From a virus: a stretch of DNA of 55,617 nucleotides. The stretch spans positions 1 to 55,617 of IMG/VR virus record IMGVR_UViG_3300024231_000789; one strand, 5' to 3'. Made by a program: the position numbers and the translations under genes. The notes under the pieces were generated by a model that saw only the letters and a list, made by a program, of their open reading frames with translations, was not told the origin of the DNA and searched no databases. Positions 3,200-44,020 of this stretch are shown here, in pieces. Within the stretch, counting starts at the first letter, position 1, and each line of letters opens with the position of its first letter.

Positions 3200-4361
3200 T
3201 GCCTATCTCCAAATTATGTGTTAAACCTAAAAGTTTATCAGTCTTTTTGTATTCTTGCTTTTCTTTCAAAAACTCTTGTATTATGTCTATATAATTTTCT
3301 TTATAGCCACTGCCAATTCTTTTACGTATGGTTTCCAAAAACTCTAAAGTGCCGCTTTGATTGTGTTGAGACAACGAGTATTGTTTGATTATTTGTACTG
3401 TTTGGTCTATATTCTTTTTAAATGATGTGGGTAATATTTTTACATCTAGATCTTTAGGGGTACTTACAGCCGTTCCTGATATAGAAAAAGGCTTATTGTA
3501 TTCTGACATTACATCATGTATCCATTGAACATATTTTGGAAATGTTGGTAGTGCAACATTATTCATTGCAACATCAAAAAGTATTTTTTCTACTTTTGGA
3601 TGCTGTGCATAGGTACGCAAGTTAGACTCAAATCTTCCCCAATCTAATCCATATCTAATTAAACTACTATCCTGGTTATAGCTTTCGTTGCTAATATGGA
3701 TGGCCCATTCGCTTTTAGATCTATCCATAGCATCAATAAATTTTTTAAATAAGAAATCTTTTGTATTGCCGTTGGTGGTTACTTGTATTTCTCCTCGCAT
3801 ATTTTCAAGCGATGCAATGTGATTAATCATATCATAAAATAATTTACTAGCTGTAGGTTCACCGCCCAAGAATGCAATATCGATCTTTGTTTGTGAATTA
3901 TTGACAGTGTCAGTCAGCCATTGTTTATAAACTTCAAGATCTTTTTCTGTAAACTTGTTTACAACTTTTACGCCTTCCTCTTGTGCAATCTTACTACTAT
4001 GATCAGGGTGACAGTATAAGCAACTTAAATCACATATATTATCTAATTCCATTTCTATATAATTTACTTGAGGTACATCTGGTTTAGCAGATCCAAAATC
4101 GTCCCACTCATTCATCCAGTCTTTAAAAGGTGTATTTCCACTTTCTATATCGTCCCAACACATTACACAATCAGAATGTTGGATATTATTTAAAGTATCT
4201 TGCCTACGTTGCTGTATAAGTTCACTATTACTAAAAAATATAGGTGTAATATCATCAGGCATATCATGATAGACGGATGCACAGCAATGTCCTAGCTTAC
4301 GGTTTTTAAAGTTAATGTTTACATCTGTCCAGCTTTTGGAGCATGCAGTTCTGTTTTTCAT
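3192..4361 (-). CDS. Radical SAM protein with N-terminal Cys cluster (copy B)
   Basis: 389 residues and paralogous to the adjacent copy A over its whole length. The CX3CX2C cluster is at C110/C114/C117, with GGEPT motif FLGGEPTASKLFYD. The N-terminal Cys domain (C7, C26, C27, C65, C68) and a shared NESY...LIRYGLDWxRFE block are conserved in both. Its ATG overlaps the stop of the UV endonuclease gene by 4 nt (ATGA). The reaction is unknown. Keeping two divergent copies suggests either two substrates or a heterodimer. Confidence 0.85.
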   Translation of the reverse strand: MKNRTACSKSWTDVNINFKNRKLGHCCASVYHDMPDDITPIFFSNSELIQQRRQDTLNNIQHSDCVMCWDDIESGNTPFKDWMNEWDDFGSAKPDVPQVNYIEMELDNICDLSCLYCHPDHSSKIAQEEGVKVVNKFTEKDLEVYKQWLTDTVNNSQTKIDIAFLGGEPTASKLFYDMINHIASLENMRGEIQVTTNGNTKDFLFKKFIDAMDRSKSEWAIHISNESYNQDSSLIRYGLDWGRFESNLRTYAQHPKVEKILFDVAMNNVALPTFPKYVQWIHDVMSEYNKPFSISGTAVSTPKDLDVKILPTSFKKNIDQTVQIIKQYSLSQHNQSGTLEFLETIRKRIGSGYKENYIDIIQEFLKEKQEYKKTDKLLGLTHNLEIGNE

Positions 4362-5386
4362 ACGCCTTCTTCTTCAAAGGGTATGCTCGCTAAGTTTTTA
4401 TGTTTTGCTTCTACCATGATATCAAAATCCTTACGGAAGCTACCAGCCCACTTATTACAAGCATCATTCCACATGTAATCGCTATGAGCTCGTAATTTAG
4501 CTTTTTTAAATCCTTGTTCCAGTAACACTTGAAAATCTGGCCGTTGGTCTCTTGGATGACCATCCAACAAGTCTTCGCGACTGACGCTATAGTGCATAGT
4601 AGGACGTACACCACGCCAACTGTCAATAATACGTTTAATACGATCGTCATTTCGATCAATGTACTCTCCTCCACTATGACACCAGTGATGATGTATATCT
4701 ATTACTAGCGCCACATCTTTAGCCAATTCGAGGCTGGCATCAATTCCCCAGGAGTTTTCGTCATTTTCAATAGTGATACAGTTTCGTGCTTCTGTAGACA
4801 GTCTTGGAAGGACGGCTTTGATACCGGCTGGACCTTGTCTGCCTGAGATGTGGACGTTACACTTGAAGTCTTGCCACTTCTGACCGTAACCCATCCACCT
4901 GATGATATCCGCATGATACTCAAACTCCTCTATACTTCTATTTACTATATTTTCATTATCTGACGCCAAAACAGTAAATTGGCCAGGGTGCATGCTTACA
5001 CGCACATCTAATTGCTTTGCAAGTTCGCCTACTTGTGACCAGCCTTTGGCTGCTGCATCACGTACATCGCTTTGTTTGTAAAACCAAGACCAGTCATCGT
5101 GTGTATAAGCAGGCATCATATTACTGCCTAGCCGTACCATACGTTGGCCTTCTGGCAAGTTACCAACATATTCAATAAGACGATATGCATTTTGCCAGTT
5201 AGTATCCAAACAAAACCACAGTTTATCTTCTGCCACTGATTGCTTTTGATTGTTAAGCCATGTAATAGTTGTACTACGCTCGCTATATTGGCCCTGTACT
5301 TCTTTAAGTATTTTTGGCTTTTGCGTCTGGTCTGGGTGCATGTACTTGCATGCAAATCCTACACGCTGTAAGTCTTGATTAAACAT
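4358..5386 (-). CDS. uvsE: UV-damage endonuclease (UvdE/UvsE family)
   Basis: About 342 residues when started at the ATG at 5386. This start is chosen because the family begins near RVGFACKYMHP and because ATG overlaps the upstream stop by 8 nt (ATGTTTAA). UVDE is a TIM-barrel metallo-endonuclease that nicks 5' of UV photoproducts. Visible family blocks are MVRLGSNMMPAY, RVSMHPGQFTVLAS, ITIENDENSWG, VIDIHHHWCH and HYSVSR, rich in the His, Glu and Asp metal ligands. It lets the phage repair its own DNA without host NER, fitting a sunlit-ocean virus. A strong sigma70 promoter lies upstream of the operon. Confidence 0.88.
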   Translation of the reverse strand: MFNQDLQRVGFACKYMHPDQTQKPKILKEVQGQYSERSTTITWLNNQKQSVAEDKLWFCLDTNWQNAYRLIEYVGNLPEGQRMVRLGSNMMPAYTHDDWSWFYKQSDVRDAAAKGWSQVGELAKQLDVRVSMHPGQFTVLASDNENIVNRSIEEFEYHADIIRWMGYGQKWQDFKCNVHISGRQGPAGIKAVLPRLSTEARNCITIENDENSWGIDASLELAKDVALVIDIHHHWCHSGGEYIDRNDDRIKRIIDSWRGVRPTMHYSVSREDLLDGHPRDQRPDFQVLLEQGFKKAKLRAHSDYMWNDACNKWAGSFRKDFDIMVEAKHKNLASIPFEEEGV

Positions 5387-5603
5387 ATGATTGCAATAAA
5401 TTGGTAGTTTGTTTTGCACTAAAGGTATGTGTAAATTTACTAGGGAAGTTTGCACGGATTGCTTGCTGTTGCTTGCGTGTATAAGGCACAGCGGTAAACG
5501 CATCTGAGCCGAATACTTGCTGTGCAAGTTGGTACTGCGATGCTGTAATTTTTTGTGCAAAGTTGAAAATAGTTAAGCCGGGTTCTGTGACTAGATAATT
5601 CAT
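5379..5603 (-). CDS. Small hypothetical protein, first gene of uvsE operon
   Basis: 74 residues, beginning MNYLVTEPGLTIFNFAQKI. The ATG has an AGGAG ribosome-binding site and sits just downstream of a near-consensus sigma70 promoter. Its stop overlaps the uvsE ATG by 8 nt. No family is recognised. Position argues that it is real: the long uvsE frame could extend through it, but only in another frame and without a ribosome-binding site. Confidence 0.65.
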   Translation of the reverse strand: MNYLVTEPGLTIFNFAQKITASQYQLAQQVFGSDAFTAVPYTRKQQQAIRANFPSKFTHTFSAKQTTNLLQSYV

Positions 5604-6208: not shown

Positions 6209-6528
6209 TAGTAACCTTCTTCGTCTTCATATCTACTAGATGTTCCTCTAGCATCTGATTGTGTGCTTACAACGATATTTTTATCGCTACTACCACTATT
6301 TACATAAAGTCCAAACCATGCTGCACCAGCACCTGTTACTACACTAACTAGGCCAGCTTGTGCCATGTTTGGATCTGTTAATGTCATAAACCATTCTACA
6401 ACATTATAAAACATATATATGTAAACAATAATAAACAGTCTTGGAAAAATACGTAGTTTATCAAACCAATATGGAAATGCTTCCCAACGACTTACTTTAC
6501 CATCATTATTTAGATCTGGTTGTGTCAT
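6208..6528 (-). CDS. Small membrane protein, holin-like
   Basis: 106 residues with two hydrophobic segments (about 28-50 and 58-78, the latter Gly/Ala-rich) and a polar C-terminus. The N-terminus has an EF-hand-like DLNNDGKVSRWE loop. Size, topology and a position next to tail-fibre genes fit a phage holin. The window also has a spanin pair but no recognised endolysin. A CATAAATA late motif and GGAG ribosome-binding site lie upstream. The holin role is an inference. Confidence 0.5.
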   Translation of the reverse strand: MTQPDLNNDGKVSRWEAFPYWFDKLRIFPRLFIIVYIYMFYNVVEWFMTLTDPNMAQAGLVSVVTGAGAAWFGLYVNSGSSDKNIVVSTQSDARGTSSRYEDEEGY

Positions 6529-12451: not shown

Positions 12452-13147
12452 TTATATTTCACTTAATAAAACTACCTTGTCTATATCGAATAATAAATCT
12501 GATTGGTATCTTAATTTGTAAAGCATAATAGATGCTTCATCATTTGTATAGAATGTAGGTAAATTTACAGTTCTATTTGGTGCGGCAGTTACATGATATG
12601 GCCAAGAATTATTTTTTAGATAAGATATATCAAAACGTCCATTTGTATAAACTATTCTGCTATCAGTAAAGGTATCATGTATAACATCAGCTGCTTCCTG
12701 TAATATTTCATTACTAGGCATACTTCTTTTGTTACGTCTGTAAAGATAATTACTTATGGGCTTTACTCTAAATTTATATTTTTTATAAAACAAACTATCT
12801 CTGTACAGTACATTTTCATCAAACTTTAATAATTCCTGCCTTTGCTCTAAATTTTTAGGAGTACATATTTCCTTAATATAAATTTGATATTCTGGTCTAT
12901 CAATTAAGTAGTTAATAAGTTTTTCACTATTTGTATATACTCTAAATTCAAAAGATCCCAACGCATGCGCCAACTGTCTAACTTTTTTATATTGGTTATC
13001 AAATAAATTAGGCAATGTAAGACGTTCTACATTTCCACCAAAATCATAAAAAGATAATCCTCCCAATGTAATCTTGGCGACATATTTACCATAATATCCC
13101 TTGTGTGATAAACGCCACGCAGGATGAGATGTAATATTTTTATCCAT
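12452..13147 (-). CDS. Hypothetical protein downstream of clpA
   Basis: About 231 residues when started at the ATG at 13147, which overlaps the clpA stop by 8 nt (ATGGATAA). A start at 13180 is possible but lies deep in clpA. The N-terminal 80 residues look beta-rich (YGKYVAKITLGGLSFYDFGG) and the rest is basic and Tyr-rich. No family is recognised. Translational coupling to clpA hints at a linked role, such as a substrate or adaptor, but this is positional inference only. Confidence 0.65.
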   Translation of the reverse strand: MDKNITSHPAWRLSHKGYYGKYVAKITLGGLSFYDFGGNVERLTLPNLFDNQYKKVRQLAHALGSFEFRVYTNSEKLINYLIDRPEYQIYIKEICTPKNLEQRQELLKFDENVLYRDSLFYKKYKFRVKPISNYLYRRNKRSMPSNEILQEAADVIHDTFTDSRIVYTNGRFDISYLKNNSWPYHVTAAPNRTVNLPTFYTNDEASIMLYKLRYQSDLLFDIDKVVLLSEI

Positions 13148-15425
13148 TTCTAATAAAAACTTCTTCCTTTGTTTTATCATAATCTACTCTAAGGGTGTAT
13201 GCTTTAGGATGATCCAGCATAAACCTTGCCATTGGTAGTTTTACTCTTTGATTAATTAAACGTGCTAATGGCCTTGCTCCCATAGTAGGGTCAAATCCTT
13301 TATCTTTTAACATCTCTTTTAAATTAGAAGTCCATTCAATTGCTACATGTCTATCTTGTACATATGTTTCAATCTCTTTTAAGAACTTATCAATAATGTT
13401 TGGCATCTCTTGTTCACTTAAAGAGTTAAACTTAACTATGCCATCAAGTCTGTTTCTAAATTCTGGAGCAAAGAAATTATTAATTGCACTTTCTACTGCT
13501 CTGTGATTAAATGTTTCTTCATTAAATCCAATACTTTTAATAGTTGCATCCTTTGCACCAAGGTTACTTGTCATAACTATGATAGCATTTTTAGCACTTA
13601 CAATTTTACCTGTACTTGATGTAATTGTTCCCTCATCTAACAAGGATAAAAGAACACTCATAAGATCTGGATGTGCTTTTTCTACTTCATCCATTAACAA
13701 GACACAATTTGGATTGTCCTCTAAATTACTAATAAGCAACCCGTCACCTGCCTTACCATCGCCATGTCCGACATAGCCTGGAGGAGAACCAATTAGTTTT
13801 GATACTGTATGACTTTCTTGATATTCTGCCATGTCATATCGAATAAGTTTCATCTTCATACTTTCTGACAGTCGTTTTGCAAGTTCTGTTTTACCTACAC
13901 CAGTAGGACCAGTAAATAGATAGCTTGCAACAGGCTTTTGTGGATCTTTAAGTCCTGCAAGTGAAACTGTGATAGCGTCTGTTACTGTGTCGATTGCTTC
14001 CTGTTGGCCAAAAACTTTAGACATTAAGTGTTGCTTAACATTATCATACTTTGTACTTGAGCTTTGATCATCTTGTTTACCTAAGTGTTCTATAGGAATA
14101 CCCACAAGGCTTGAAATCTCTTCTTTAATCATATCCTCAGTAATTAGACTTACCCGCATTTCTGCTGGCTGTATACGATTCTTAGCACACGCTCTATCAA
14201 TAAGATCAAATGCTTTATCAGGCAGTTGCTTATTAAAAATATACTGGTTACTTAACTCTACAGCTAGACCTGATACACCTTCTTCAAAGTCAACATCATG
14301 GAAACTGCCATAAGTTTCTAAAGTTGCATTAAGTATTTCCTTTGCCTCTTCAACACTAGGCTCATTTACTGTAACTTTTGTAAACCTTCGTGCTAACGCA
14401 CTTTCCTTTTCAATAATTTTCCTATATTCTTCGTCTGTTGTGGCACCAATAACTTTTAACTTACCACTACTTAATGCTGGCTTCAACATGTTACCTGCAT
14501 CCATACTACCACTACTACTACCTGCACCAATTAATGTATGTATTTCGTCAATAAAAAGAATAATGTCTGGTGTACTTTCCAATGCTTCTGCTAATTGTTT
14601 CATACGCTCTTCGAAGTCACCTCTGTATTTTGTACCTGCAACTAATTTGCCCATGTCCAATTCATAAACAGTATCTCCCACAATTGTATCTGGTACTGAT
14701 TCTTCTACTACTAGTTTCGCTAATCCTTGTACAATTGCAGTTTTTCCTACGCCACTAGGACCTGCAAGTATTACATTGCTTTTCTTCTTACGTGCAAGTG
14801 TTTGTACAACTTCTGCCAGCTCATCACGTCTACCAATTACATCGTCAAAATCCTGACTTTCAGCATTTAGATCTTTACAAAAAGACTTGATAACATCTAT
14901 ATTATTTTTTTGTACTTTAGTTTGTTGCTGTTGTTGGGGGATAGTATTAGGTCCATATGATCCACTAATATGTTGCTTATAAAAATCCGTTGCTGTATCT
15001 GTTTCAGACTCTGACATCCATTTAATAACTTTTGTTTTACTCAGTCCCATTTGATCACAAAAATTTGCACTTATAGATTTATCTTCACTTAAAATACTTA
15101 ACACCAGGTCTAGCTGATTAATTACACGTTTGCCCTGGAACAATGCTTGTGTAAGAGCTCTATTAAATACTCTCTCTAGCATTTGTGTTTTTCTAGGAGA
15201 TGGTTCCTCAATAGGATTAGTGACAAGCTCTTTGCAATCATGTTCTAGAAACTGCACTAGAGCCACCTGTAGTCCTTCATGATCCGCCGCAATTTCCAAA
15301 CACATATTTCTTATTTGCGGATCATCAAGCACCACTGCTGTCAAGTGCTCTATAGTCAAATAATCATGTTTAAATTTTTTAGCCAAATCTATAGCAGTAA
15401 GTAAAATTTGTTCAATATCAGTCAT
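13140..15425 (-). CDS. clpA: ClpA-type AAA+ unfoldase
   Basis: 761 residues, about the length of bacterial ClpA. An N-terminal Clp-N domain (1-145), the docking site for ClpS, precedes two AAA+ modules. D1 has Walker A GPSGVGKT (222-229) and Walker B FIDEIH. D2 has GPTGVGKT (506-513), MDEVEKAH and sensor FAPEFRNRLD. There is no ClpB-type middle coiled coil. The D2 loop KSIGF (IGF at 632-634) matches the ClpA IGL/F loop that docks ClpP, so it should feed a peptidase. ClpP and ClpS are encoded elsewhere in this window. It is coupled (ATGACTGA) to the J-protein gene upstream. Confidence 0.92.
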   Translation of the reverse strand: MTDIEQILLTAIDLAKKFKHDYLTIEHLTAVVLDDPQIRNMCLEIAADHEGLQVALVQFLEHDCKELVTNPIEEPSPRKTQMLERVFNRALTQALFQGKRVINQLDLVLSILSEDKSISANFCDQMGLSKTKVIKWMSESETDTATDFYKQHISGSYGPNTIPQQQQQTKVQKNNIDVIKSFCKDLNAESQDFDDVIGRRDELAEVVQTLARKKKSNVILAGPSGVGKTAIVQGLAKLVVEESVPDTIVGDTVYELDMGKLVAGTKYRGDFEERMKQLAEALESTPDIILFIDEIHTLIGAGSSSGSMDAGNMLKPALSSGKLKVIGATTDEEYRKIIEKESALARRFTKVTVNEPSVEEAKEILNATLETYGSFHDVDFEEGVSGLAVELSNQYIFNKQLPDKAFDLIDRACAKNRIQPAEMRVSLITEDMIKEEISSLVGIPIEHLGKQDDQSSSTKYDNVKQHLMSKVFGQQEAIDTVTDAITVSLAGLKDPQKPVASYLFTGPTGVGKTELAKRLSESMKMKLIRYDMAEYQESHTVSKLIGSPPGYVGHGDGKAGDGLLISNLEDNPNCVLLMDEVEKAHPDLMSVLLSLLDEGTITSSTGKIVSAKNAIIVMTSNLGAKDATIKSIGFNEETFNHRAVESAINNFFAPEFRNRLDGIVKFNSLSEQEMPNIIDKFLKEIETYVQDRHVAIEWTSNLKEMLKDKGFDPTMGARPLARLINQRVKLPMARFMLDHPKAYTLRVDYDKTKEEVFIRNG

Positions 15426-16856: not shown

Positions 16857-17075
16857 TTACTTATACCTAAATACTATTCTTCCCTTTGTTAAATCATAGG
16901 GAGTCATTTCCAAATCTACTTTATCTCCTGAAAGGATTTTAATTTTATTTTTACGGATTTTACCGCTAACTATTCCTAATACAGTAACACCATTTTCTAG
17001 TTCTACTTTAAATGTAGCACCGGGCATACACTCTTTAATTATTCCTGTTACACTGATAGGTTCTTCTTTAGCCAT
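16857..17075 (-). CDS. infA: Translation initiation factor IF-1
   Basis: 72 residues ([15 protein letters not shown]), the length of bacterial IF-1. The OB-fold landmarks match E. coli IF-1 closely: [30 protein letters not shown] and the C-terminal [15 protein letters not shown]-1 binds the ribosomal A site with IF-2 and IF-3. The ATG at 17075 is preferred over longer readings because family homology begins there. A perfect TATAAATA ends 4 nt before the ATG with no Shine-Dalgarno, so the mRNA may be leaderless. The spanin gene follows with no gap. Confidence 0.95.
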
Positions 17076-17079
17076 ACTG

Positions 17080-17087
17080 TATTTATA
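17080..17087 (-). promoter_or_regulatory. Late promoter TATAAATA, leaderless spacing to infA
   Basis: TATAAATA-CAGT-ATG. Transcription starting about 6 nt after the octamer would begin at or beside the initiation codon. It overlaps the 3' end of the SGNH gene. Confidence 0.65.
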
Positions 17088-17823: not shown

Positions 17824-18299
17824 TAATATTCGTTTAGGAATTTAATACGTTCTGAAATTTCTTGGGCTTGTTTATTATATGTTTTTACATAATCTAAACT
17901 ACTATCTATAACTCTACTACTAAAATTTTCCTTACTCCAAGGAGTAGGTGTAGTGTTTTTATAACTAGTAAATTTAAAGTCACAACAATTGTTATCGACT
18001 CTTTCAACATCTTTAAGTATTTTTTCAATATTGAAAAAAAGTTTACTATCTCTGTCTAGTTCGACAAATACATTGTATTTTCCATTTTTGTTTGGTCCTT
18101 GGCTGATGTCTACATCTAAGAAATCATGTCCTGTTTCTAAAAACATACTTAAATCTTTAGCAGGGTCTTTATCCATTACCTCGAATGCAACCACAACAAC
18201 ATTTTCATCAGAACCAATTTTACTTTTAAATTGATCTATACTAATTGTGTCTGTGATAAGACTATTGAGATCGTTATTTTGTATTCCTTCATTCAGCAT
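17823..18299 (-). CDS. Hypothetical protein
   Basis: 158 residues, mixed alpha/beta (ENVVVVAFEVMDKDPAKDL), with a cysteine pair NNCCDFKF. It overlaps the upstream gene by 11 nt and the downstream by 1 nt. Arrangement suggests a virion-assembly transcript started by the late promoter at 18840. No family is recognised. Confidence 0.6.
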   Translation of the reverse strand: MLNEGIQNNDLNSLITDTISIDQFKSKIGSDENVVVVAFEVMDKDPAKDLSMFLETGHDFLDVDISQGPNKNGKYNVFVELDRDSKLFFNIEKILKDVERVDNNCCDFKFTSYKNTTPTPWSKENFSSRVIDSSLDYVKTYNKQAQEISERIKFLNEY

Positions 18300-18909: not shown

Positions 18910-18947
18910 AGTCTAACAAGAATAACAACCTATGAATAGGAGTAAAC

Positions 18948-24874: not shown

Positions 24875-25075
24875 TTATTTGCTAAAAAATTTATCAGCCT
24901 CCTCACGTGCTTTCTTATCAACATGTTGATAATTTCCACGAACTCTTGTCGCTAGACTAATGTCTTCCAATACTTCTATTTTTTCAATAACCCTACTTAA
25001 TGCCCTTTGAGCATCAGGTGTTTCTTTGGCTATTTGTTTGTTAATAATCTCTAAAACTTCTCTACTGGTAATCAT
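24875..25075 (-). CDS. Small helical protein
   Basis: 66 residues, helical and mostly charged (LEIINKQIAKETPDAQRALS). Has its own sigma70 promoter. No family is recognised. Confidence 0.6.
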   Translation of the reverse strand: MITSREVLEIINKQIAKETPDAQRALSRVIEKIEVLEDISLATRVRGNYQHVDKKAREEADKFFSK

Positions 25076-25174: not shown

Positions 25175-25182
25175 TATAAATA
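25175..25182 (+). promoter_or_regulatory. Late promoter TATAAATA, leaderless spacing
   Basis: TATAAATA-GTGAT-ATG: the octamer ends 5 nt before the radical-SAM start at 25188 and no Shine-Dalgarno exists. Confidence 0.7.
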
Positions 25183-25187
25183 GTGAT

Positions 25188-26102
25188 ATGAAATATACAA
25201 AGTACCAACCAGAAGAAAATCCATTCATGTTCTTAGTCGCAGACATTACACACAAATGTAATATGACATGTAAAAATTGCTATATACCTAACAGAGATAT
25301 TCCAGATATGGACTTTAATAAATTTGTAGAATTTATTGATCGTCTACCTAGAAGGACAATGATTAGGCTTATTGGAGCAGAACCAACAATGAACAAACAA
25401 TTACCTGACTACATTCGTGCCTTAAAAGAACGTGGACATCGCCACGGACTACTAACTAACGGACTAAGATTTAGTCATCAGAGATATGTAGATATACTCA
25501 AAGAGGCTGGTCTAGACACAGTGTACATTAGTTTAAATGGTGTAGATAACGATGATTGGTATCAAGAGATTGATGAAATGCGTTGCAGTACCAAAAAATT
25601 AAAAGCTGTAGGAAACATTATCAATAGTGGTTTAAATATAGAGACTGGTACAATTATTGTTAAGGGTATTAATGAAGATGCTCCAGCTAGACTAAGTAAG
25701 TTATTATTTGAAACACATGATGTTAAAAATACACTTATAAGAATCAAAAATGTAGGACAAATTGGACGACATATGGATGAGGCAGTTAACTCATTTACTA
25801 TGGATGAACTGATTAAAATATGTGCTGACGGTTTTGGTATTAGCGAAGATTTTATTCATGAATATAAAAAATCAGGACGCAATCCACTTAATCACGAACC
25901 AAATACTTGTGTTTTTCCGTTAGATGGAGTTGGCAAAACTATGCTACGTGGAGCATGGGTTAAAATTACTAATTGGATTGTTGATGAAGATGATATAGGC
26001 GGCATGCCAGACCCTGGTAGTATAAGACGTGGCCGTATTACAGAGGACTGGATGTGCGCTCCGTTCTTTGAAGATGTAAAAGCAAATGAATTCGGATATT
26101 AG
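25188..26102 (+). CDS. Radical SAM protein paired with an acyl carrier protein
   Basis: 304 residues. CX3CX2C at C24/C28/C31 (THKCNMTCKNCYIPNRD). RLIGAEPTMN is a variant of the GGEPT motif, with Ala for the second Gly. FETG-containing and YISLNG strands follow the barrel. No C-terminal SPASM-type Cys cluster is clear, though CVFP and DWMCAPFF near the end hold two Cys. The acyl carrier protein starts 9 nt downstream, so the substrate may be a carrier-bound acyl or aminoacyl group. Plus strand, late-promoted. Confidence 0.85.
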   Translation: MKYTKYQPEENPFMFLVADITHKCNMTCKNCYIPNRDIPDMDFNKFVEFIDRLPRRTMIRLIGAEPTMNKQLPDYIRALKERGHRHGLLTNGLRFSHQRYVDILKEAGLDTVYISLNGVDNDDWYQEIDEMRCSTKKLKAVGNIINSGLNIETGTIIVKGINEDAPARLSKLLFETHDVKNTLIRIKNVGQIGRHMDEAVNSFTMDELIKICADGFGISEDFIHEYKKSGRNPLNHEPNTCVFPLDGVGKTMLRGAWVKITNWIVDEDDIGGMPDPGSIRRGRITEDWMCAPFFEDVKANEFGY

Positions 26103-26110
26103 GAGTTAAA

Positions 26111-26356
26111 ATGGATATCGTAACACAAACAATAATTGACGTCATAAAAGATCTACAGGATGTAGAAATATCTTATGATGATGTACATGCAGGTAAACAA
26201 ATAGCAGACTTTGGTCTAGACAGTATAGATAGTATAGAACTATTATTAGAGTTAGAAGATAGATTTGATGGCATGGACTTACCTGATTTTGATAATGCAG
26301 AGCTTGCTAATTTGAAAGAAGTATGGCAGTATCTTACAGATAATTTACCTAGCTAA
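26111..26356 (+). CDS. Acyl carrier protein
   Basis: 81 residues of ACP fold: LGLDSIDSIELL, with Ser38 in the DSx motif taking 4'-phosphopantetheine, and acidic helices around. GGAG ribosome-binding site; it follows the radical-SAM gene with an 8-nt gap. A phage-encoded ACP beside a radical-SAM enzyme suggests a small tailoring pathway. Nothing here is an obvious ketosynthase, so it may use the host pantetheinyl transferase and acyl chains. Confidence 0.85.
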   Translation: MDIVTQTIIDVIKDLQDVEISYDDVHAGKQIADFGLDSIDSIELLLELEDRFDGMDLPDFDNAELANLKEVWQYLTDNLPS

Positions 26357-26914
26357 ATCATAACACCCAACTAATGCAAGTCTGGTTGCATCGCTTGTAC
26401 TATATACAGCATGCGGCCAACTAGTATTCAAAAATACTACTTCCCCTATCTTAGGTATATAAGCATGTAGATCTTTTCTAGATTTTACTACAATTTCCTG
26501 TGAGCCTTGTATTACACAAGTAAATCGTTCTTTAACTGGGTCATCAATATGAAAGTCAATCATACCGTTTGGATTCATTATAGCTAATTTGAGATTATAA
26601 ACATGACTACCCAGCACATCTTGTAAATTGTCTACAACAGATTGCATATTATATTTTGTAATATTAAAATCAATACTACTTGATGGGTTTGGTTGGCTTC
26701 CTTGCAGCAAATAGTGTGTAATTTTAAAATCACTATTCAATTGTATTCCACTTTCAGCTCTTAGATCTTTTGTAACACCACTTTCATCTCCCAGGTGTTC
26801 CATTGCAAATAAAGAGAATGCCTTAATTTTAGCAATTTGCCCATCCTCTATAAAGCCATAAGATTTAAAAGCAGGTAGATTACGTCTATTTTTCGCCAAC
26901 TTGATTTTGTCCAT
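26345..26914 (-). CDS. 2-oxoglutarate/Fe(II) oxygenase-like protein
   Basis: About 189 residues from the ATG at 26914 (MDKIKLAKNRRNL). The C-terminal half shows the double-stranded beta-helix pattern: DFHIDDPVKERFTCVIQGSQ (His-x-Asp), then WPHAVYSTSDATRLAL (distal His and Arg). Resembles Asp/Asn beta-hydroxylases and phytanoyl-type proteins common in cyanophages. The start lies in the palindromic promoter shared with the divergent gene. It converges on and overlaps the ACP stop by 12 nt. Confidence 0.7.
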   Translation of the reverse strand: MDKIKLAKNRRNLPAFKSYGFIEDGQIAKIKAFSLFAMEHLGDESGVTKDLRAESGIQLNSDFKITHYLLQGSQPNPSSSIDFNITKYNMQSVVDNLQDVLGSHVYNLKLAIMNPNGMIDFHIDDPVKERFTCVIQGSQEIVVKSRKDLHAYIPKIGEVVFLNTSWPHAVYSTSDATRLALVGCYDLAR

Positions 26915-26929
26915 ATAAATATTTATATG
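26912..26929. promoter_or_regulatory. Bidirectional palindromic late promoter with both start codons
   Basis: The 18-bp perfect palindrome CATATAAATATTTATATG. On each strand it reads TATAAATA-TTTAT-ATG, so one site gives two overlapping late promoters and the start codons of two divergent genes, whose ATGs are 12 bp apart. No Shine-Dalgarno is possible on either side. Confidence 0.75.
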
Positions 26930-27958
26930 CAAAAATTTCCAATACAATTTAGACTAGACGGAGAAGAAACTCCATACTGTAAAGAGCTACTGAGCAAAAC
27001 TTGGTACTTAGATAATTTAGATGATGCTAGAAGATTATACGAAATAAGATGCCTACAGGCACTTATAGGCGTAGATACAGAATCATTTGCACACAAATAT
27101 TTTATGCACAGTATAGACAAATTCGATGAACTAGCAAACTTAAAAGACTACTTTGATGAGAAAGAGTTTTACGAGAAACAACCAGATTTAAAACAATATT
27201 ATAAAGGCGATGTCCTTTCAAAGGATAATAATAGCAATAAAACTATAGTTGTTTTAAGCCACAGAGGACATTGGGCATATAGCCTTTACAATAACACGAG
27301 TCTAGAAAATTATAGGCATCCTGAATATCATTATCTAACTAAAAATGAAGATTATAACTACATTAGTTTCTTTGAAGATGAAACTAGAAGTTATCCTAAT
27401 CCAATATTAGAGCCAAGTAGCTTTTACAAAGGAGTTAATAATGGGGATTTAGATAGTTTACAAAAGATGGCAGATTTTGTTAAAGAAAAATATCCTGATA
27501 CAGAATACTATGTAGTAAGCGATTGTAAGGCAGGACACAGTTCTTGTATACTTGCAGAATATTTAAGTGCCAAAAAGGTATTTGTGTCGTCGCCTGTGAC
27601 TTTTTTAGACGCTGTAGAATTATGGGATTATTTAGAAATAGATGGATGTGTTAGTACAAAGTGTCTTATGGATATAAATTTTATAATGTATATAAGAGCT
27701 GTTCTTTATCAAGATAATTTTCTAACACACCAATGCAATATCAATTCAATTGCAAAATTTAATCCAGACATAGATTTTAATATCAATGGTGTTAGGGGAG
27801 ACTTTTTAATTTCCTCACATATTAGAAATATTGATGAAACACTTCCAAATGTTCAATTAAATTTAGTGAGCAGTAATAAGTGGATACATAACAATCATCA
27901 TATGTTAGGTTGGGTACGTAAACAAAATCTTATTGAGGATTACTTTTCAGAAAAATAG
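26927..27958 (+). CDS. Hypothetical protein with alpha/beta-hydrolase-like segment
   Basis: 343 residues. The middle (IVVLSHRGHWAYSL; then YYVVSDCKAGHSSCILAEYL) resembles an alpha/beta hydrolase core: a strand, a turn, then GHSS in place of GxSxG. A following VSSPVTFLDAVEL would be the next strand. The catalytic elbow is not a perfect match, so function is uncertain. Located beside an ACP and radical-SAM genes, it could be a thioesterase-like or acyl-transfer partner. The start is in the palindromic promoter. Confidence 0.6.
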   Translation: MQKFPIQFRLDGEETPYCKELLSKTWYLDNLDDARRLYEIRCLQALIGVDTESFAHKYFMHSIDKFDELANLKDYFDEKEFYEKQPDLKQYYKGDVLSKDNNSNKTIVVLSHRGHWAYSLYNNTSLENYRHPEYHYLTKNEDYNYISFFEDETRSYPNPILEPSSFYKGVNNGDLDSLQKMADFVKEKYPDTEYYVVSDCKAGHSSCILAEYLSAKKVFVSSPVTFLDAVELWDYLEIDGCVSTKCLMDINFIMYIRAVLYQDNFLTHQCNINSIAKFNPDIDFNINGVRGDFLISSHIRNIDETLPNVQLNLVSSNKWIHNNHHMLGWVRKQNLIEDYFSEK

Positions 27959-28379: not shown

Positions 28380-28690
28380 TGTCTTCGTAGCAACAAACTG
28401 CTCGTTGCCTCTAATTATTATTATTTTATCGAAAACTGGCACTTCTGTTACCAGGTAGTACCCACCCTTGCATACCTAAATTAGGCTGCTAATGCCATTG
28501 CTGGCGCATAATTGTTATTTGCAATTATAAAATTTAACCTATTACGCTGTTACCCGGTTAACTCCACTTCACTTTCACACCTGTCGATCCTAGTTCAGCC
28601 CCATCATAAAAACATTCAGCAAATGTGCTTATGGTGGAGCTGCTCGGTACTGCCCCGAGGTCCAGTATGTGTCCACGTTACTTCAACGTT
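28380..28690 (-). ncRNA. ssrA: Permuted two-piece tmRNA
   Basis: Read leftward, the acceptor piece comes first: a T-arm-like stem CTCGG/CCGAG, then CAGCTCC-A-CCA, ending near 28632. About 30 nt on, the coding piece opens with GGGGCTGAACTAGGATCGAC at 28602. Its GGGGCTG pairs with CAGCTCC to build the tRNA-like acceptor stem (one G-U). The GTGTG after it can pair with CACAT of the acceptor as P2. Pseudoknot-like pairs (GTTA..TAAC; TTAACC..GGTTAA) precede the tag frame at 28522-28481: ANNNYAPAMALAA then a stop. Outer ends are estimated. This is the alphaproteobacterial form. Confidence 0.9.
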
Positions 28691-28698
28691 AACATCAT

Positions 28699-28729
28699 TA
28701 TTTATAACATATATACATTTATGTGTCAA
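28699..28729 (-). promoter_or_regulatory. Overlapping sigma70 and late promoter for tmRNA
   Basis: TTGACA (28729-28724), 17 nt, TATAAA (28706-28701); the -10 box lies inside a full TATAAATA octamer (28706-28699). One site can therefore serve host RNA polymerase early and the phage late machinery, so tmRNA is made throughout infection. Confidence 0.85.
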
Positions 28730-28734
28730 GAACT

Positions 28735-28935
28735 TTATTTAGAAGGAGTTAATTTTATATATGACTCATCTAATTCAATAGGAATACAATCTATCCCTTG
28801 GCCTTTATTTTTTACCAATATGTGTGCTTTGCTAAGTTCTTTACCACAGTCTTCTACTGTTAAATATGTTCCTACATGATAATATTGCATATCACCAGCA
28901 GGTGTTATTGCTAACCAAATTAATATCCACAACAT
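28735..28935 (-). CDS. Small exported or membrane-anchored protein
   Basis: 66 residues: a hydrophobic N-terminus (MLWILIWLAITPAGDM) like a short signal peptide or anchor, then a polar body with two Cys (C30, C50) that could form a disulfide. GGGGAG ribosome-binding site. The stop is 6 nt from the tmRNA -35 box. Unknown. Confidence 0.6.
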   Translation of the reverse strand: MLWILIWLAITPAGDMQYYHVGTYLTVEDCGKELSKAHILVKNKGQGIDCIPIELDESYIKLTPSK

Positions 28936-30316: not shown

Positions 30317-30336
30317 TATTTATACTTAAATAAATA
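30317..30336. promoter_or_regulatory. Back-to-back late promoters
   Basis: TATAAATA on the minus strand (30324-30317) for the glycosyltransferase, and AATAAATA on the plus strand (30329-30336) for the MscS-like gene. The plus reading ends 5 nt before the ATG at 30342, with no ribosome-binding site; the minus one has a leader with GGAGG. Confidence 0.6.
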
Positions 30337-30341
30337 CTAAC

Positions 30342-30662
30342 ATGGAAACACAAGCAATTGCAGAAAATTTAGTAGTATCTGTGCAACCTATTATTATATT
30401 ACTGGTTGCAGGGATTATTGGACTCTGGCTTAAAGACTTTATGACAAGTGTTGTGGCTAGTTTAAAATGGAAAATGAAGCCTGGATTTGAACCTGGAGAC
30501 ACTGTCTTTTTAGATGGAGAATCAGCAGTAATTATAAGCATAGGCTATAGAGAAACTGTATTTGAGATAGATAACGGTAGAGGAAAAGTTTGGCGTTATA
30601 TAGAAAACACAAGAATTCCAACACACAGACTTGAACAAATAATAATAAAGAAAGAAAAATAA
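30342..30662 (+). CDS. MscS-like channel fragment
   Basis: 106 residues. One transmembrane segment (IILLVAGIIGLWLKDF region, about 16-38), then a MscS-type beta domain: GFEPGDTVFLDGESAVIISI, then RETVFEID and NTRIPTHRLE, parallel to GDxV.....G.V..I...T....D...V.IPN. Compared with a full MscS (about 290 residues), the other TM helices and C-terminal vestibule are missing. Could poison or modulate the host channel, or act in virion ejection. A lipase gene follows with 1 nt between. Confidence 0.65.
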   Translation: METQAIAENLVVSVQPIIILLVAGIIGLWLKDFMTSVVASLKWKMKPGFEPGDTVFLDGESAVIISIGYRETVFEIDNGRGKVWRYIENTRIPTHRLEQIIIKKEK

Positions 30663-31407: not shown

Positions 31408-32377
31408 TTTCATCTTCTGTTTGGCCTTGGCTCCAAGTACCTTCTAGACATTTAATTACACAGCCCTGCTTATGCTTAGACACTGTACTATCCAGTTGTT
31501 CTTGACTTCCTACTAGTTCAGCTCTAACAAGATCATAGCAAGGATTTTCTACCTTATCCAAGGCTAACATCATCATATGCTCTATACCATTGTATCTCCA
31601 GTTATACCCTATTCTTGAATCTTTGCCAAGTACAAAGCCATCATATCTTACTGCATCCCATAGCATAAATCTTACATTGCTTGGATCACTATCCAGCACT
31701 TCTTGATTTTCTGTACTTACTACATTATTTTTTTCATCAATCACCACTGCATGACCATCATACATTGTATTTTGTCCTTGCGATAGCTTAATAAAATCGT
31801 CATTATGTATTGTAAAATTTTCTATTTCTTCTCCTGATTTTAATCTATAGGAGACCTTTTCATCATTTACAATTATATTAACTCTTAACCCTCTACTAAC
31901 AGGTTGTACTGCTGCAGGAAATTTATCATAATTATCCACAGTCCCCACTGTTGCATATCTAATAGGATAGGATGTAATTAGTCCTGGCCATACTTTGTTA
32001 ATTGTACTAATTTCTAGTCCCAAAGTTTCTGCCATAGTTTGATTTAATAGTAATAGGAATACAGGTGCATCCATGTCATTCATATGCATAAATGCCATTC
32101 TACATGCAAACTCAGCTTCTTTTTTATCAAACTTTTTTGATATTATATCTTCTATTATATGCATAAACCTAGGGAGACCCATACCGAATTTTTTGCCCAT
32201 GTGTTTAGGTTCAAACTCTTGCATGCCAAAATTTAACCAAGGATTATAAGCAATCTCGATTATTTTTTGTATACTAGATTCTTTTTGATATTTTTTAAGA
32301 ATATCATATTTTGCTTGTTGTTTGTTAGACAGTTGTACATTAGTAACAAAGCTAGACAATAATGCTATTTTACTCAT
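31385..32377 (-). CDS. T4-type DNA ligase relative lacking the catalytic lysine
   Basis: 330 residues. STINKVWPGLIT (about 125-136) matches T4 gp30 SIANKVWPGLIP, as do the helical N-terminal domain and later blocks. In T4 ligase the adenylated Lys sits in FPAFAQLKADGARC. Here the aligned text is FPAAVQPVSRGLRV, with Val160 for Lys and Arg162 for Asp. The EGIILK motif has become QGCVIKC, and the OB-fold after it is missing. So it probably cannot ligate, but might still bind nicked DNA or a partner. Leaderless-type late promoter. Confidence 0.7.
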   Translation of the reverse strand: MSKIALLSSFVTNVQLSNKQQAKYDILKKYQKESSIQKIIEIAYNPWLNFGMQEFEPKHMGKKFGMGLPRFMHIIEDIISKKFDKKEAEFACRMAFMHMNDMDAPVFLLLLNQTMAETLGLEISTINKVWPGLITSYPIRYATVGTVDNYDKFPAAVQPVSRGLRVNIIVNDEKVSYRLKSGEEIENFTIHNDDFIKLSQGQNTMYDGHAVVIDEKNNVVSTENQEVLDSDPSNVRFMLWDAVRYDGFVLGKDSRIGYNWRYNGIEHMMMLALDKVENPCYDLVRAELVGSQEQLDSTVSKHKQGCVIKCLEGTWSQGQTEDEIIYFHQP

Positions 32378-32382
32378 ACTAC

Positions 32383-32390
32383 TATTTATG
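32383..32390 (-). promoter_or_regulatory. Late promoter variant CATAAATA, leaderless spacing
   Basis: CATAAATA-GTAGT-ATG: ends 5 nt before the start at 32377 with no Shine-Dalgarno. Confidence 0.6.
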
Positions 32391-32407: not shown

Positions 32408-32431
32408 AAACTAGCACCTAGGTGCTAGTTT
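32408..32431 (-). terminator. Rho-independent terminator
   Basis: Perfect 24-nt palindrome AAACTAGCACCTAGGTGCTAGTTT followed on the minus strand by a T-run. It contains the stop codon of the gene at 32425. Confidence 0.8.
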
Positions 32432-34614: not shown

Positions 34615-35397
34615 CTAAAAGAACCTTTTTACCTTTACATTCTTAGGTATAGGAGTGCCGTCACGTTTTGCACTCTTAGGCCCAAAATCAAATACATCGT
34701 CGATAGGAAAAGTTCTTATATCTTCACTTTTTATATCCAAGTACGGCTTTGTATCTAAGTTTGTTTCGTCTTCGTGGGCTACAAGATATTCTAGATCTCT
34801 TGTTTGGTACCATGCCAGACTTTCATCTGGATATCCAACCCCCACGACAATAATTGGCTCATAGCGAGGAATATCTTCATACCCTAGCCATTTTCTCCAT
34901 TCATCTGGATTAGCATCACCATTATGCATAGTATTTTGACTATATCCAGTGCGTAGTCCCATCATATTTGCTGCTAGAACCATTTGTCCTGAGCTAATGC
35001 CTACTGATTTTTGTTGGGTCTTTCCAAATTCTTCATCAAATAATTCATTAATGCCAGGACCAGATTCGTCTGCTGCCCAAATATCTTTATGTAAATCTTC
35101 CGGTGGTGTTTTACCGTAGATAAAGATACATGGTGCATGAACTTGTGTGTTGTGCATTGCACTATTTGTTTTTTTCCAATGATACCCCCATGTAAATCTC
35201 GCTGCATGTTCTTTAAGCATATCTTCGTTTGTAATTACTGTGAGATTAAAATCAACCTCATTTTGTTTGCTCGGTGCGTTGACTGCTATTTCTGTTAAAA
35301 AATCAATAGTCTCTTGGTCCACTTTTTTGTCTGACCAGTTGCGTTGTGCTTTGCGACTTTGGTGCATAGCTTTTAATATAAAATCTTTATCTATCAT
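34615..35397 (-). CDS. Nitroreductase-family protein
   Basis: About 260 residues from the ATG at 35397 (MIDKDFILKAMHQSRKAQRN). That start is preferred because GATAAATA ends exactly 5 nt before it; the longer frame to 35424 overlaps guaC. FMN-binding blocks VNAPSKQNEVDF and SVGISSGQMVLAANMMGLRTGYSQ are visible. Might alter host redox or cofactor pools. The hydride acceptor is unknown. Confidence 0.75.
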   Translation of the reverse strand: MIDKDFILKAMHQSRKAQRNWSDKKVDQETIDFLTEIAVNAPSKQNEVDFNLTVITNEDMLKEHAARFTWGYHWKKTNSAMHNTQVHAPCIFIYGKTPPEDLHKDIWAADESGPGINELFDEEFGKTQQKSVGISSGQMVLAANMMGLRTGYSQNTMHNGDANPDEWRKWLGYEDIPRYEPIIVVGVGYPDESLAWYQTRDLEYLVAHEDETNLDTKPYLDIKSEDIRTFPIDDVFDFGPKSAKRDGTPIPKNVKVKRFF

Positions 35398-35402
35398 ACT
35401 TC

Positions 35403-35410
35403 TATTTATC
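35403..35410 (-). promoter_or_regulatory. Late promoter variant GATAAATA, leaderless spacing
   Basis: GATAAATA-GAAGT-ATG before the nitroreductase start; no Shine-Dalgarno. Confidence 0.55.
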
Positions 35411-37548: not shown

Positions 37549-37778
37549 TTTTTAGAGAACTTTACTACATTATGAATAAATGTTACTTTATTCTTTTTAT
37601 AATGATCTGCCAACTTTTTACAGGATGCCTTTTCCTTCATTGCCATAACAACTAACTCATCTGTGAGTTTATCATTATCACATGGATCATATGTATTACG
37701 ATTAGTGTTAGCAAAAATAGTCTTACCTATTTTTTCATCACTCGTAAATGCTGTCCAAGTTGGTCGAAACTTTTTCAT
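37545..37778 (-). CDS. Small basic protein between ClpS and cytidylyltransferase
   Basis: 77 residues, Lys-rich (KEKASCKKLADHYKKNKVTF), with one or two Cys. ATGA overlaps on both sides. No family is recognised. Its link to clpS by translational coupling is the only clue. Confidence 0.65.
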   Translation of the reverse strand: MKKFRPTWTAFTSDEKIGKTIFANTNRNTYDPCDNDKLTDELVVMAMKEKASCKKLADHYKKNKVTFIHNVVKFSKK

Positions 37779-38077
37779 TCAGATTCCTCTATTACTACGT
37801 CTAAAGGATATCCTGCATGTCTTGCTTCTGAAACAGTCTCTACACATTTTTGCTCTGCTACTTCGTAACTATATGTACCAGCTACTGCACGACCAGTTTC
37901 ATGTATATCTATCATAAGTTGCTCTGCATCCTCTGGAGTTCTTTTAAAGATTGCAATTAAAATCTGTATTACAAAATCCATAGGTGTGCTATCATCATTA
38001 AGCATAACGACATGATACTTATTGGGTGTCTTTAACTTAATTGCTTCAACGGATTCTTGTTTCTGTATTTGGGTCAT
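37775..38077 (-). CDS. clpS: ClpS N-degron adaptor
   Basis: 100 residues, standard ClpS length. The N-terminal tail is short, then KYHVVMLNDDSTPMDFVIQI: the NDD and Thr/Pro positions that bind the N-terminal residue and ClpA. MIDIHETGRAVAGTYSYEVAEQK holds the conserved His. ClpS delivers N-end rule substrates to ClpAP. Its presence with a phage ClpA implies regulated N-degron proteolysis. ATGA overlap with rpsU. Confidence 0.93.
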   Translation of the reverse strand: MTQIQKQESVEAIKLKTPNKYHVVMLNDDSTPMDFVIQILIAIFKRTPEDAEQLMIDIHETGRAVAGTYSYEVAEQKCVETVSEARHAGYPLDVVIEESE

Positions 38078-38315: not shown

Positions 38316-39503
38316 CTATTTAATTAAATGTGGCATCTTGCCATTAATAATTGTTTCTTTATTTACTAAAATTTTTTTAATACCTTTTTCAGATAAGTCT
38401 GAAGATTCATATTGTAATTCTAATAATGCTTGGTCGAGAATCTTTCTTAATCCTCTTGCACCTAGCTTCTGCTCAATTGATATGTCTGCTACAGCATTCA
38501 AAGATGCTTTGTCAAATTCTATATTTAAACTGTCCATACCAAACAGCTCTTTATATTGTTGTATGATATTATTCTTTGGTTCGGTTAATATCCTTACAAG
38601 GTCATTTGAATCCAACTCATTTAATATATTTATACTAGGCAATCTACCTACAAATTCTGGTATCAATCCATACTTAACTAAGTCAATAGTTTGTAAATGA
38701 TCTCTCCAATCTAAGTCTTTATCTTTTATTTCAAGCTCTGTAAAACCAATACGGTTTTTTCCCACTCTTTGCATCACAACATCATCTAGTCCAATAAATG
38801 CGCCCCCAACTATGAAAAGAACTTCACTTGTATCTATATCTACTTTTTCTGGCAACTGACCTGGTTTATTAGGAACAGTTATAACAGTGCCTTCCATAAG
38901 TTTTAAAAGACTTTGTTGCACACCCTCACCACTGACGTCTCTACTTAAACTGACATAGTCATTACGTTTGGCTTTTTTATCAATCTCATCTACATATATT
39001 ATTCCTGTGTGTGCTTTATCTAAATCATAGTCAGCTTCTTGTAATAGTCTATGTACTAATACTTCTGCATCGTCACCTGCATAACCACTTTCAGTAATAG
39101 TAGTAGCATCCGTAATCACAAAAGGAACATTTAAATGATCTGCCAATGTTTGTGCAATTAGCGTTTTTCCTGTGCCTGTTGGGCCTATCATTAAAACATT
39201 ACTCTTGCCTAATTTTACATCACTTGTATAATTTAGTCTCTTATAATGATTAGATACTGCTACACTAATAGACTTTTTTGTCCTCTCCTGACTTATTACA
39301 TAATCGTTTAATACACTGTGTAAATTTTTAGGATTAATTAAACTAGGAAGAGGCTTTTCTTTATAACTCTTATCATCCTGTACTATTTCACTACAAAGCA
39401 CGACACAACTATCACAGATATGAGTGTTATCATTACCTGCTAATAGCTTTTTGACTTTTGTGCTATCTTTGCCGCAAAAATTACAGATGGGAGTTTTAAT
39501 CAT
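38316..39503 (-). CDS. clpX: ClpX AAA+ unfoldase
   Basis: 395 residues. The N-terminal zinc domain has C7, C10, C30, C33. Walker A GPTGTGKT (107-114), Walker B VDEID (171-175), pore-1 loop GYAG (140-143) where bacterial ClpX has GYVG, and IGF (252-254) in RIGFTELE, which docks ClpP. GLIPEFVGRLPSINIL and ARGLRKILDQALLELQYE complete the C-domain. Should recognise C-terminal LAA, thus phage tmRNA-tagged products, and work with phage or host ClpP. ATG overlaps the previous gene's stop by 8 nt (ATGATTAA). Confidence 0.95.
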   Translation of the reverse strand: MIKTPICNFCGKDSTKVKKLLAGNDNTHICDSCVVLCSEIVQDDKSYKEKPLPSLINPKNLHSVLNDYVISQERTKKSISVAVSNHYKRLNYTSDVKLGKSNVLMIGPTGTGKTLIAQTLADHLNVPFVITDATTITESGYAGDDAEVLVHRLLQEADYDLDKAHTGIIYVDEIDKKAKRNDYVSLSRDVSGEGVQQSLLKLMEGTVITVPNKPGQLPEKVDIDTSEVLFIVGGAFIGLDDVVMQRVGKNRIGFTELEIKDKDLDWRDHLQTIDLVKYGLIPEFVGRLPSINILNELDSNDLVRILTEPKNNIIQQYKELFGMDSLNIEFDKASLNAVADISIEQKLGARGLRKILDQALLELQYESSDLSEKGIKKILVNKETIINGKMPHLIK

Positions 39504-42851: not shown

Positions 42852-43409
42852 TTATTTAGCTATTGATTTAAATTTGTCTACGATTCCGTTGTAATCATAT
42901 AAATCTGATGGATTGGGTATTCTTAACTTCAGTAATATTCTATCTTCATTCTTTGCAAAAGGTACACAATGCATTTCCCTTGTGTTCAGTATTGCGGCGT
43001 CATAGTAAATAGGATCTGGATAGTCTATAAATTGTACTGGTGTATCAAAACCCTTTAATACAAAATTCATACTTACCTTAACAACTTTATCAACATGCCA
43101 TCTTAGTTCTTCACCCTGGTATAATTTTAAAAACTGTGGGTATAGATAGCTTACATCTAGCTCAAGGATACTTGATATTTTTTCAGCAAGCCTCAAAGCC
43201 TCGCCTCCTTGAACAACTGAGACTTGCCAGTCATGATTATCAAACCATTTTGAAGCGGTCTCATGGCTATCACTAACCAATCTGTCATAGCTACCCGGAC
43301 CAAATACATTACTGTAGTCAGAATTTTCTGCTTCCTGTAATATTAAATCGAAATCAAAGTCCTTGACAAAACGGTCAATATTATAGACATATTTTTCTTT
43401 ATCAATCAC
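42852..43409 (-). CDS. 2OG/Fe(II) oxygenase-like protein
   Basis: 185 residues. [20 protein letters not shown] (His, Asp), then [25 protein letters not shown] (distal His) and [10 protein letters not shown] (Arg) outline the double-stranded beta-helix. Related in pattern to Asp/Asn beta-hydroxylases. Starts inside the clpP end (ATG overlap 4 nt). Confidence 0.65.
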
Positions 43410-44020
43410 TTTTTAGTGACTACCTTGTCTGCTAATCCCCAATCAACTGCATCTTGTGCTGATAAGAATGTATCAAACTTCATTGTCTCAAACATATCTT
43501 CATACGTTTTACCTGCCGTATTGTGCTTAACATATGTTTCAGTAAGTTGGCGATTAAGTTTTTTACTTTCCTCGAAACTACGGATTACATCCGTCATTTC
43601 TAACTCTTGTACATGCACACTACCTGATGTGCCACGTGTGCCTGAACTTACACGATGGATCATTGTGCGACTATTTGGCAACACAAAACGCTTGCCTGGT
43701 TCACCTGCCATTGCCAAAAAGCTACCCATTGAACATGCCTGTCCCATCACGATTGTTGATACTGGAGCATTAATAAACTGCATCGTATCATAAATTGCTA
43801 GTCCAGATGTAACACCACCGCCAGGGCTGTTGATATAAAAATTAATATCTTCATCACTATTTTGTGATTCTAGGAAAAGCATTTGTGCTACGACTAAGTT
43901 TGAACTCTGATCGTTTACTTCTCCATTTAGCATTACAATTCTGTCTTTAAGTAGACGACTGTAAATGTCATATGAGCGTTCGCCACGCCCTGTTTGTTCT
44001 ACTACCATAGGTACTAGCAT
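43406..44020 (-). CDS. clpP: ClpP peptidase
   Basis: 204 residues, no propeptide-like extension. The catalytic triad is in place: Ser97 in [11 protein letters not shown], His122 in TMIHRVSSG, Asp183 in [26 protein letters not shown] and the head-domain blocks match. The His-to-Asp distance is 61 residues against about 49 in E. coli ClpP, so the handle segment (about 145-175) is longer, which could change ring pairing. Should accept the IGF loops of the phage ClpX and ClpA. GGAG ribosome-binding site. Confidence 0.95.

Follow-up and report, generated by a model that had tools for sequence, protein, structure and literature searches.

A perfect 18-bp palindrome in a viral genome fragment as a predicted bidirectional, doubly leaderless late promoter of the T4 type

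In a genome fragment of a marine bacteriophage, two divergent genes are joined by a perfect 18-bp palindrome which, judging from its sequence, is very probably a fully overlapped, bidirectional, and doubly leaderless T4-type late promoter. The analysis covered a 55.6-kb fragment from a virus record, and this whole stretch of DNA is referred to below as the window. The 18-mer, CATATAAATATTTATATG, is identical to its own reverse complement. Both strands read the late-promoter octamer TATAAATA, then TTTAT, and then ATG, and the A residues of the two ATGs are separated by 12 bp (Table 1). This is the geometry that the initial annotation had described, and it is borne out by the sequence in every part. 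The octamers overlap on opposite strands and face divergent genes, as in a bidirectional promoter, and they leave no room for a Shine-Dalgarno (SD) sequence before either start codon. Consistent with a T4-type late promoter, the octamer is perfect on each strand, and NATAAATA is positionally enriched before open reading frames (ORFs) in the window and its relatives. What the sequence shows directly is this geometry, a genome-wide class of starts at a fixed 5-nt spacing, the lack of SD sequences among such starts, and the return of the 18-mer between pairs of unrelated genes.

Late promoters of T4 have the octamer's first T at position -13 and function without a -35 element (PMC2988020). With the octamer at -13 to -6, position +1 would be the sixth base after the octamer, which is the A of each palindrome ATG. 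The initial annotation had placed the transcription start about 6 nt past the octamer, in agreement with this register (PMC2988020). The transcription start sites (TSSs) probably lie at the two palindrome ATGs, and the window phage probably uses a gp55-type sigma factor. Homologs of gp55 are encoded by several related contigs, among them G028, whose PhoH places it near the window, and no gp55 gene was found in the 55.6-kb window fragment itself.

In the mechanism that we propose, two leaderless-class NATAAATA promoters of the gp55 type would be inverted and completely overlapped, which is possible because T4 late promoters need no -35 element. The 5-nt spacer of each promoter would be supplied by the partner strand of the other octamer, and the -13 T of one promoter would pair with the +1 A of the other. 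Such pairing forces a T at -13, and the palindrome results. Since the overlap of the two promoters forces the palindrome, no dimeric regulator need be invoked. Whichever way it faced, the late-sigma RNA polymerase would melt the same ~14 bp and initiate at the A of an ATG. The two mRNAs, transcribed divergently, would each have AUG at the 5' end and would be translated without an SD sequence. On one DNA copy, the geometry would admit only one polymerase at a time.

Table 1. Coordinates of the palindrome, its flanking genes, and the leaderless-type late promoters of the window
Feature	Position	Strand	Remark
Perfect palindrome: two overlapping inverted late promoters (predicted) and both start codons	26912..26929	.	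Recurs in 52 IMG/VR stretches
TATAAATA late-promoter octamer of the rightward gene, -13 to -6	26914..26921	+	Register from PMC2988020
TATAAATA late-promoter octamer of the leftward gene	26920..26927	-	2 bp overlap with the + octamer
ATG of the rightward gene; A = predicted +1	26927..26929	+	TSS inferred
ATG of the leftward gene; A (26914) = predicted +1	26912..26914	-	TSS inferred
189-aa 2OG oxygenase/cupin-like protein	26345..26914	-	Weak domain matches, HxD...H
343-aa protein, function unknown	26927..27958	+	No family match, low-confidence fold
Leaderless-type late promoter and ATG (predicted), radical-SAM gene 25188..26102	25175..25190	+	From sequence
Leaderless-type late promoter and ATG (predicted), 106-aa gene	30329..30344	+	Back to back with leadered - promoter 30317-30324
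Leaderless-type late promoter and ATG (predicted), 330-aa gene	32375..32390	-	From sequence
Leaderless-type late promoter and ATG (predicted), nitroreductase-family gene	35395..35410	-	From sequence
Near-leaderless late promoter (gap 4) and ATG (predicted), phage IF-1 gene	17073..17087	-	From sequence

The leftward gene had been called 2OG-type. Its product keeps an HxD...H pattern (FHIDDP ... WPH), and the Pfam families Asp_Arg_Hydrox and cupin were matched weakly (E 0.005-0.01), below the cut-offs, so the assignment is plausible but not proven. The rightward gene, described earlier as one of unknown function, fits that description, as its 343-aa product had no significant match in a family search. 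No match was found for it among phage proteins, and single-sequence AlphaFold2 gave a pLDDT of 36.6. A TTG start (26947) upstream of the left ATG was rejected, as it lies inside the right gene without promoter spacing and homologs in other pairs start at the palindrome ATG. The search of IMG/VR for relatives of the window's own gene pair found only a 100% identical contig, and the conservation tests used two other pairs, F0/F1 and F2/F3, in its place. In the genes that flank the 18-mer, the loci L046 and L002 match the window phage at 100% identity and do not count as independent. Among annotated phages, the top matches listed in the search for near-DNA relatives cover the tRNA region only. 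Adjoining the palindrome pair, positions 25188-26356 (+ strand) carry a radical-SAM gene and then an acyl-carrier-protein gene in a region that is mostly on the - strand, and the negative bias of the GC skew is lost locally around them.

Other genes of the window were also noted. A permuted tmRNA of the alphaproteobacterial type is encoded at 28390-28748 on the - strand (Rfam alpha_tmRNA, 132 bits; ARAGORN tag ANNNYAPAMALAA), which suggests an alphaproteobacterial host. Genes for a ClpA/ClpB-like ATPase, ClpS, a ClpX-like protein, and ClpP lie on the - strand at 13140-15425, 37775-38077, 38316-39503, and 43406-44020; on one fragment, they make up a nearly complete phage-borne Clp protease set. 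Inspection of the translations by eye revealed a tandem pair of proteins at 2045-4361 (- strand) that resemble each other and have radical-SAM-like CxxxCxxC motifs; they are adjoined by a UvsE-like endonuclease at 4358-5503.

Within the window, the non-random element is the position of the octamer relative to the ATG, not octamer count or palindromy. The octamer TATAAATA occurs 12 times versus 10.2 expected and is not enriched, and its count alone was rejected as evidence because it is not significant. Perfect palindromes of at least 18 bp number 4 versus 0.34 expected; this is mildly unusual, and palindrome length alone was likewise rejected as evidence. The three further palindromes (18020-18039, 24915-24932, and 32408-32431; 18-24 bp, e.g. 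AAACTAGCACCTAGGTGCTAGTTT) are possibly terminators. When ATGs were counted only if their ORF reached 60 aa, 6 of the 24 NATAAATA sites were followed by an ATG at a gap of exactly 5, versus 0.06 expected from permuted heptamers (Poisson P ~6e-11). With the palindrome left out, the count was 4 versus 0.055 expected (P ~4e-7). The octamer-led starts of the window form two classes: seven at gap 4-5, all ATG and none with an SD sequence, and nine at gap 19-39, all with one. This division suggests that the phage has two late-promoter classes, one leadered with SD sequences and one leaderless without them. An AUG start without an SD sequence is a sign of leaderless mRNA, and it is present at seven window sites. 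The gene behind the gap-4 promoter encodes a phage translation initiation factor IF-1 (16857-17075, - strand; Pfam eIF-1a, E 5e-22), which may have a link to leaderless translation.

The gap-5 class is also found in other phages. Ten whole or near-whole contigs carrying the 18-mer were counted together with the window after every 18-mer had been removed, and an ATG followed at gap 5 at 38 of 520 sites versus 1.4 expected. The same count gave 9 at gap 4 and 8 at gap 6, with a separate hump at 15-24. The IMG/VR 18-mer sample was selected on the motif, whereas the counts from the cultured phages, the PhoH loci, and the PhoH contigs were not. Loci with PhoH homologs, fetched by similarity to the PhoH of the window with no promoter feature used in the selection, had gap 5 at 26 of 323 sites (~1.4 expected) and a second hump at 17-30. 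In 12 whole PhoH-selected contigs, ATAAATAN5ATG occurred 76 times versus 8 for the reversed control. The cultured Pelagibacter phage HTVC008M showed gap 5 at 9 of its 45 NATAAATA sites, versus 0.12 expected; examples lie at 6280, 7562, 16007 (- strand), 18916 (- strand), 19456, 31132, and 49760. Seven of the nine ATGs were compared with the independent annotation, and all seven coincide with annotated CDS starts, those of a 2OG oxygenase, CsgF, the tape measure, the DNA end protector, the baseplate tail tube cap, a baseplate wedge subunit, and the baseplate wedge initiator; gp2 is one of the seven. Several of these gap-5 genes are T4 late structural genes.

The class is confined to part of the phages compared. 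S-PM2 had gap 5 at 1 of 59 sites, and gap-5 ATGs were found at 0 of 65 sites in T4, 0 of 35 in KVP40, and 0 of 38 in Syn9. The pattern was also absent from the alphaproteobacterial phages Cr30 and phiM12, and a description as typical of alphaproteobacterial phages was rejected as a general rule on account of these two. An SD-like sequence precedes the start at 1 of 67 gap-5 sites versus 83 of 126 sites at gaps 14-35, a low rate that is partly or largely a matter of geometry, as the place of an SD sequence is taken up by the octamer. No shared motif was evident by eye in the flanks upstream of the gap-5 sites. The initial annotation had concluded that both mRNAs would be leaderless. Comparative sequence supports this through the one-nucleotide peak at gap 5; the +1 position is an extrapolation from T4 to a diverged system, as T4, KVP40, Syn9, Cr30, and phiM12 do not have the gap-5 class.

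Conservation of the palindrome in related phages had been put forward as a check, and its outcome favoured the proposal. The exact 18-mer was found in 52 IMG/VR stretches. In 32 of them, an ORF of 50 aa or longer opens in each direction, in 12 in one direction, and in 8 in neither. The 32 two-sided copies represent 14 unrelated gene-pair families, and the flanking genes encode, among others, methyltransferase-like proteins, HNH endonucleases, radical SAM proteins, fatty-acid desaturases, RuvC-like proteins, and several 2OG oxygenases. Two scrambled palindromes of the same base composition, CATTAAATATATTTAATG and CATAAATTATAATTTATG, occurred 8 times and once, with two-sided ORFs at none of the 9 copies. 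The 18-mer therefore recurs between other divergent pairs, unlike the scrambled controls, and appears to be a design that has been used repeatedly and not by coincidence. In L005, L009, L010, L019, L038, and L039, one 2OG-oxygenase family flanks the 18-mer, and the opposite flank has just a 13-aa ORF, which may be a remnant or the start of an antisense RNA.

Gene pairs were also followed beyond the motif. Relatives of F0 were fetched by protein similarity, which gave 41 loci, and in many of them F0 and F1 are divergent neighbours with a variable ATG-ATG spacer. The spacer measures 12 nt in the 18-mer form and also in L182, where one change gives CATCTAAATATTTATATG. It is 16 nt with the 14-bp palindrome TATAATTAATTATA in L184 and L185, 27-30 nt around TTAAATATATATTTAA in L204-L206, and 83 nt in L199, in which the inverted octamers are separate. 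Full overlap thus appears to be the tightest arrangement in a series of divergent promoters that are symmetric or paired. The other AT-rich palindromes between the divergent F0/F1 starts, seen around 1150-1190 in L184, L185, and L204-L206, may be bidirectional promoters with a different specificity. Neither the 18-mer nor an F2 partner is present where F3 has homologs at 48% identity.

Several other explanations of the site were weighed. A chance juxtaposition is scarcely credible and is refuted on statistical grounds: the genome is AT-rich and ~0.3 palindromes of such length are expected per window, but the 18-mer occurred 52 times versus 8 and 1 for the scrambled palindromes, and two-sided ORFs were found at 32/52 versus 0/9 copies. 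It also seems highly improbable that the palindrome serves for cassette exchange between phages, although the same 18 bp are flanked by different gene pairs in different phages. No family was found with two or more partner families, at the 18-mer F0 is always paired with F1 and F2 with F3, and F0/F1 are still divergent neighbours in several relatives without it; for want of partner mixing, exchange at the palindrome was rejected. The perfect dyad symmetry, and the short AT-rich palindromes TATAATTAATTATA and TTAAATATATATTTAA between some distant F0/F1 copies, would suit a dimeric-regulator site or a cruciform, with the likeness to a late promoter being secondary. However, the gap-5 class exists without any palindrome, overlap alone forces a palindrome, and the unrelated pairs share nothing conserved beyond the promoter and the start codons, which makes a regulator site or cruciform very unlikely. 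AU-rich upstream sequence helps SD-less initiation in some bacteria, and the octamer-ATG spacing could then be an AU-rich translation-initiation signal of leadered mRNAs whose transcription starts further upstream. We regard such a signal as quite unlikely, because in the same genomes the same octamer also precedes SD-bearing starts by 17-39 nt, as would be expected of a promoter, and because the peak is one nucleotide wide and fits the T4 +1 register.

The initial annotation further held that the RNA polymerases compete for one site, giving exclusive or alternating expression. Steric exclusion on each molecule is a probable consequence of the geometry; the effect on expression is unsupported, and nothing in the sequence points to alternation. 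A switch at the shared site, through which an infected cell would express the two genes in alternation or one to the exclusion of the other, is therefore unlikely. Because the promoters share bases, simultaneous occupancy would be sterically impossible, and steric exclusion between opposing polymerases is established for bidirectional promoters of E. coli (PMC12825309). In E. coli, however, initiation at the basal level is too infrequent for the polymerases to compete appreciably, and it is strong activation of one direction that represses the other (PMC12825309). Moreover, the pairs are functionally unrelated (methyltransferase, HNH, radical SAM, RuvC, desaturase, 2OG), with no common logic visible. 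Many genome copies are present late in T4 infection, and with so many templates the cell may express both genes even if each molecule admits a single polymerase at a time.

Beyond the overlapped late promoter itself, we tentatively consider a wider scheme, to which we give somewhat less than even chances. A major branch of T4-type marine phages may possess a second, leaderless late class, NATAAATA-N5-ATG, for auxiliary and structural genes. The 18-bp site would be its end point, with the same bases serving as promoter, both start codons, and both spacers. At so symmetric a late promoter, the direction of transcription would be decided only by sequence that flanks the site or is transcribed first and by the way the replication-coupled sliding clamp faces. 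The broader finding is the leaderless class, of which the palindrome is the most compact form. If the prediction is true, 18 bp hold a pair of promoters together with both +1 sites and both start codons, and do so between at least 14 unrelated pairs; we know of no more compact divergent gene-expression element. Probably the more useful point is that NATAAATA with an ATG at exactly 5 nt would mark a leaderless late class in pelagiphage-like T4-type phages. The gap-5 rule would predict late TSSs and start codons from sequence alone and correct gene starts, and the symmetric promoter would provide a means to test how direction is chosen by the T4-type sliding clamp. A study of pelagimyophages reported that late-promoter prediction was unsuccessful (PMC7029224), and the open-access PMC full texts that were searched contained no report of leaderless T4-type late transcripts.

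The ingredients of the site are already known, namely T4 late promoters, bidirectional promoters, leaderless mRNAs, and the TATG motif of phiKZ. T4 late promoters (gp55/gp33/gp45) likewise have the TATAAATA octamer at -13 to -6 and tolerate variation at -13; in T4 they need no -35 element. Contigs related to the window encode gp55 homologs. T4 also has divergent late promoters with close inverted octamers at gp4/gp53, inh/segE, and gp26/gp51. In contrast to the palindrome, T4 starts lie mostly 12-35 nt past the octamer, mostly with an SD sequence and none at gap 5, and its divergent pairs are leadered, with 47-50 bp between the starts versus 12 in the palindrome. HTVC008M has nine NATAAATA-N5-ATG starts, and its gp2/gp4 pair is compact and divergent, with TATAAATA-N5-ATG reading leftward and the variant TCTAAATA-N5-ATG rightward at 18914-18945 of NC_020484. 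The octamers of this pair, however, are back to back and not fully overlapped, and no exact 18-mer was reported.

In the late promoters of the phiKZ non-virion RNA polymerase, the TATG motif can coincide with the ATG and the TSS is the G (PMC5312081). They differ from the palindrome in being read by a phage-encoded multisubunit polymerase, in their register (the G versus the A of the ATG), and in not being bidirectional. Alphaproteobacterial leaderless mRNAs start at the A of the AUG and use AUG starts only, with 171 mapped in Sinorhizobium meliloti (PMC3616915); their promoters are cellular, are not of the T4 late type, and do not come in overlapping pairs. Bacterial and archaeal bidirectional promoters (Warman/Grainger; PMC12825309, PMC10268837) resemble the palindrome in having a near-symmetric -10 element that is one site usable in either orientation, and in divergent transcription with steric exclusion. 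Whereas these are sigma70-type promoters with preferred TSS distances of 18, 10, or 23 bp, the palindrome has a predicted TSS distance of 13 bp, perfect symmetry, an implied phage late sigma factor, and predicted leaderless mRNAs.
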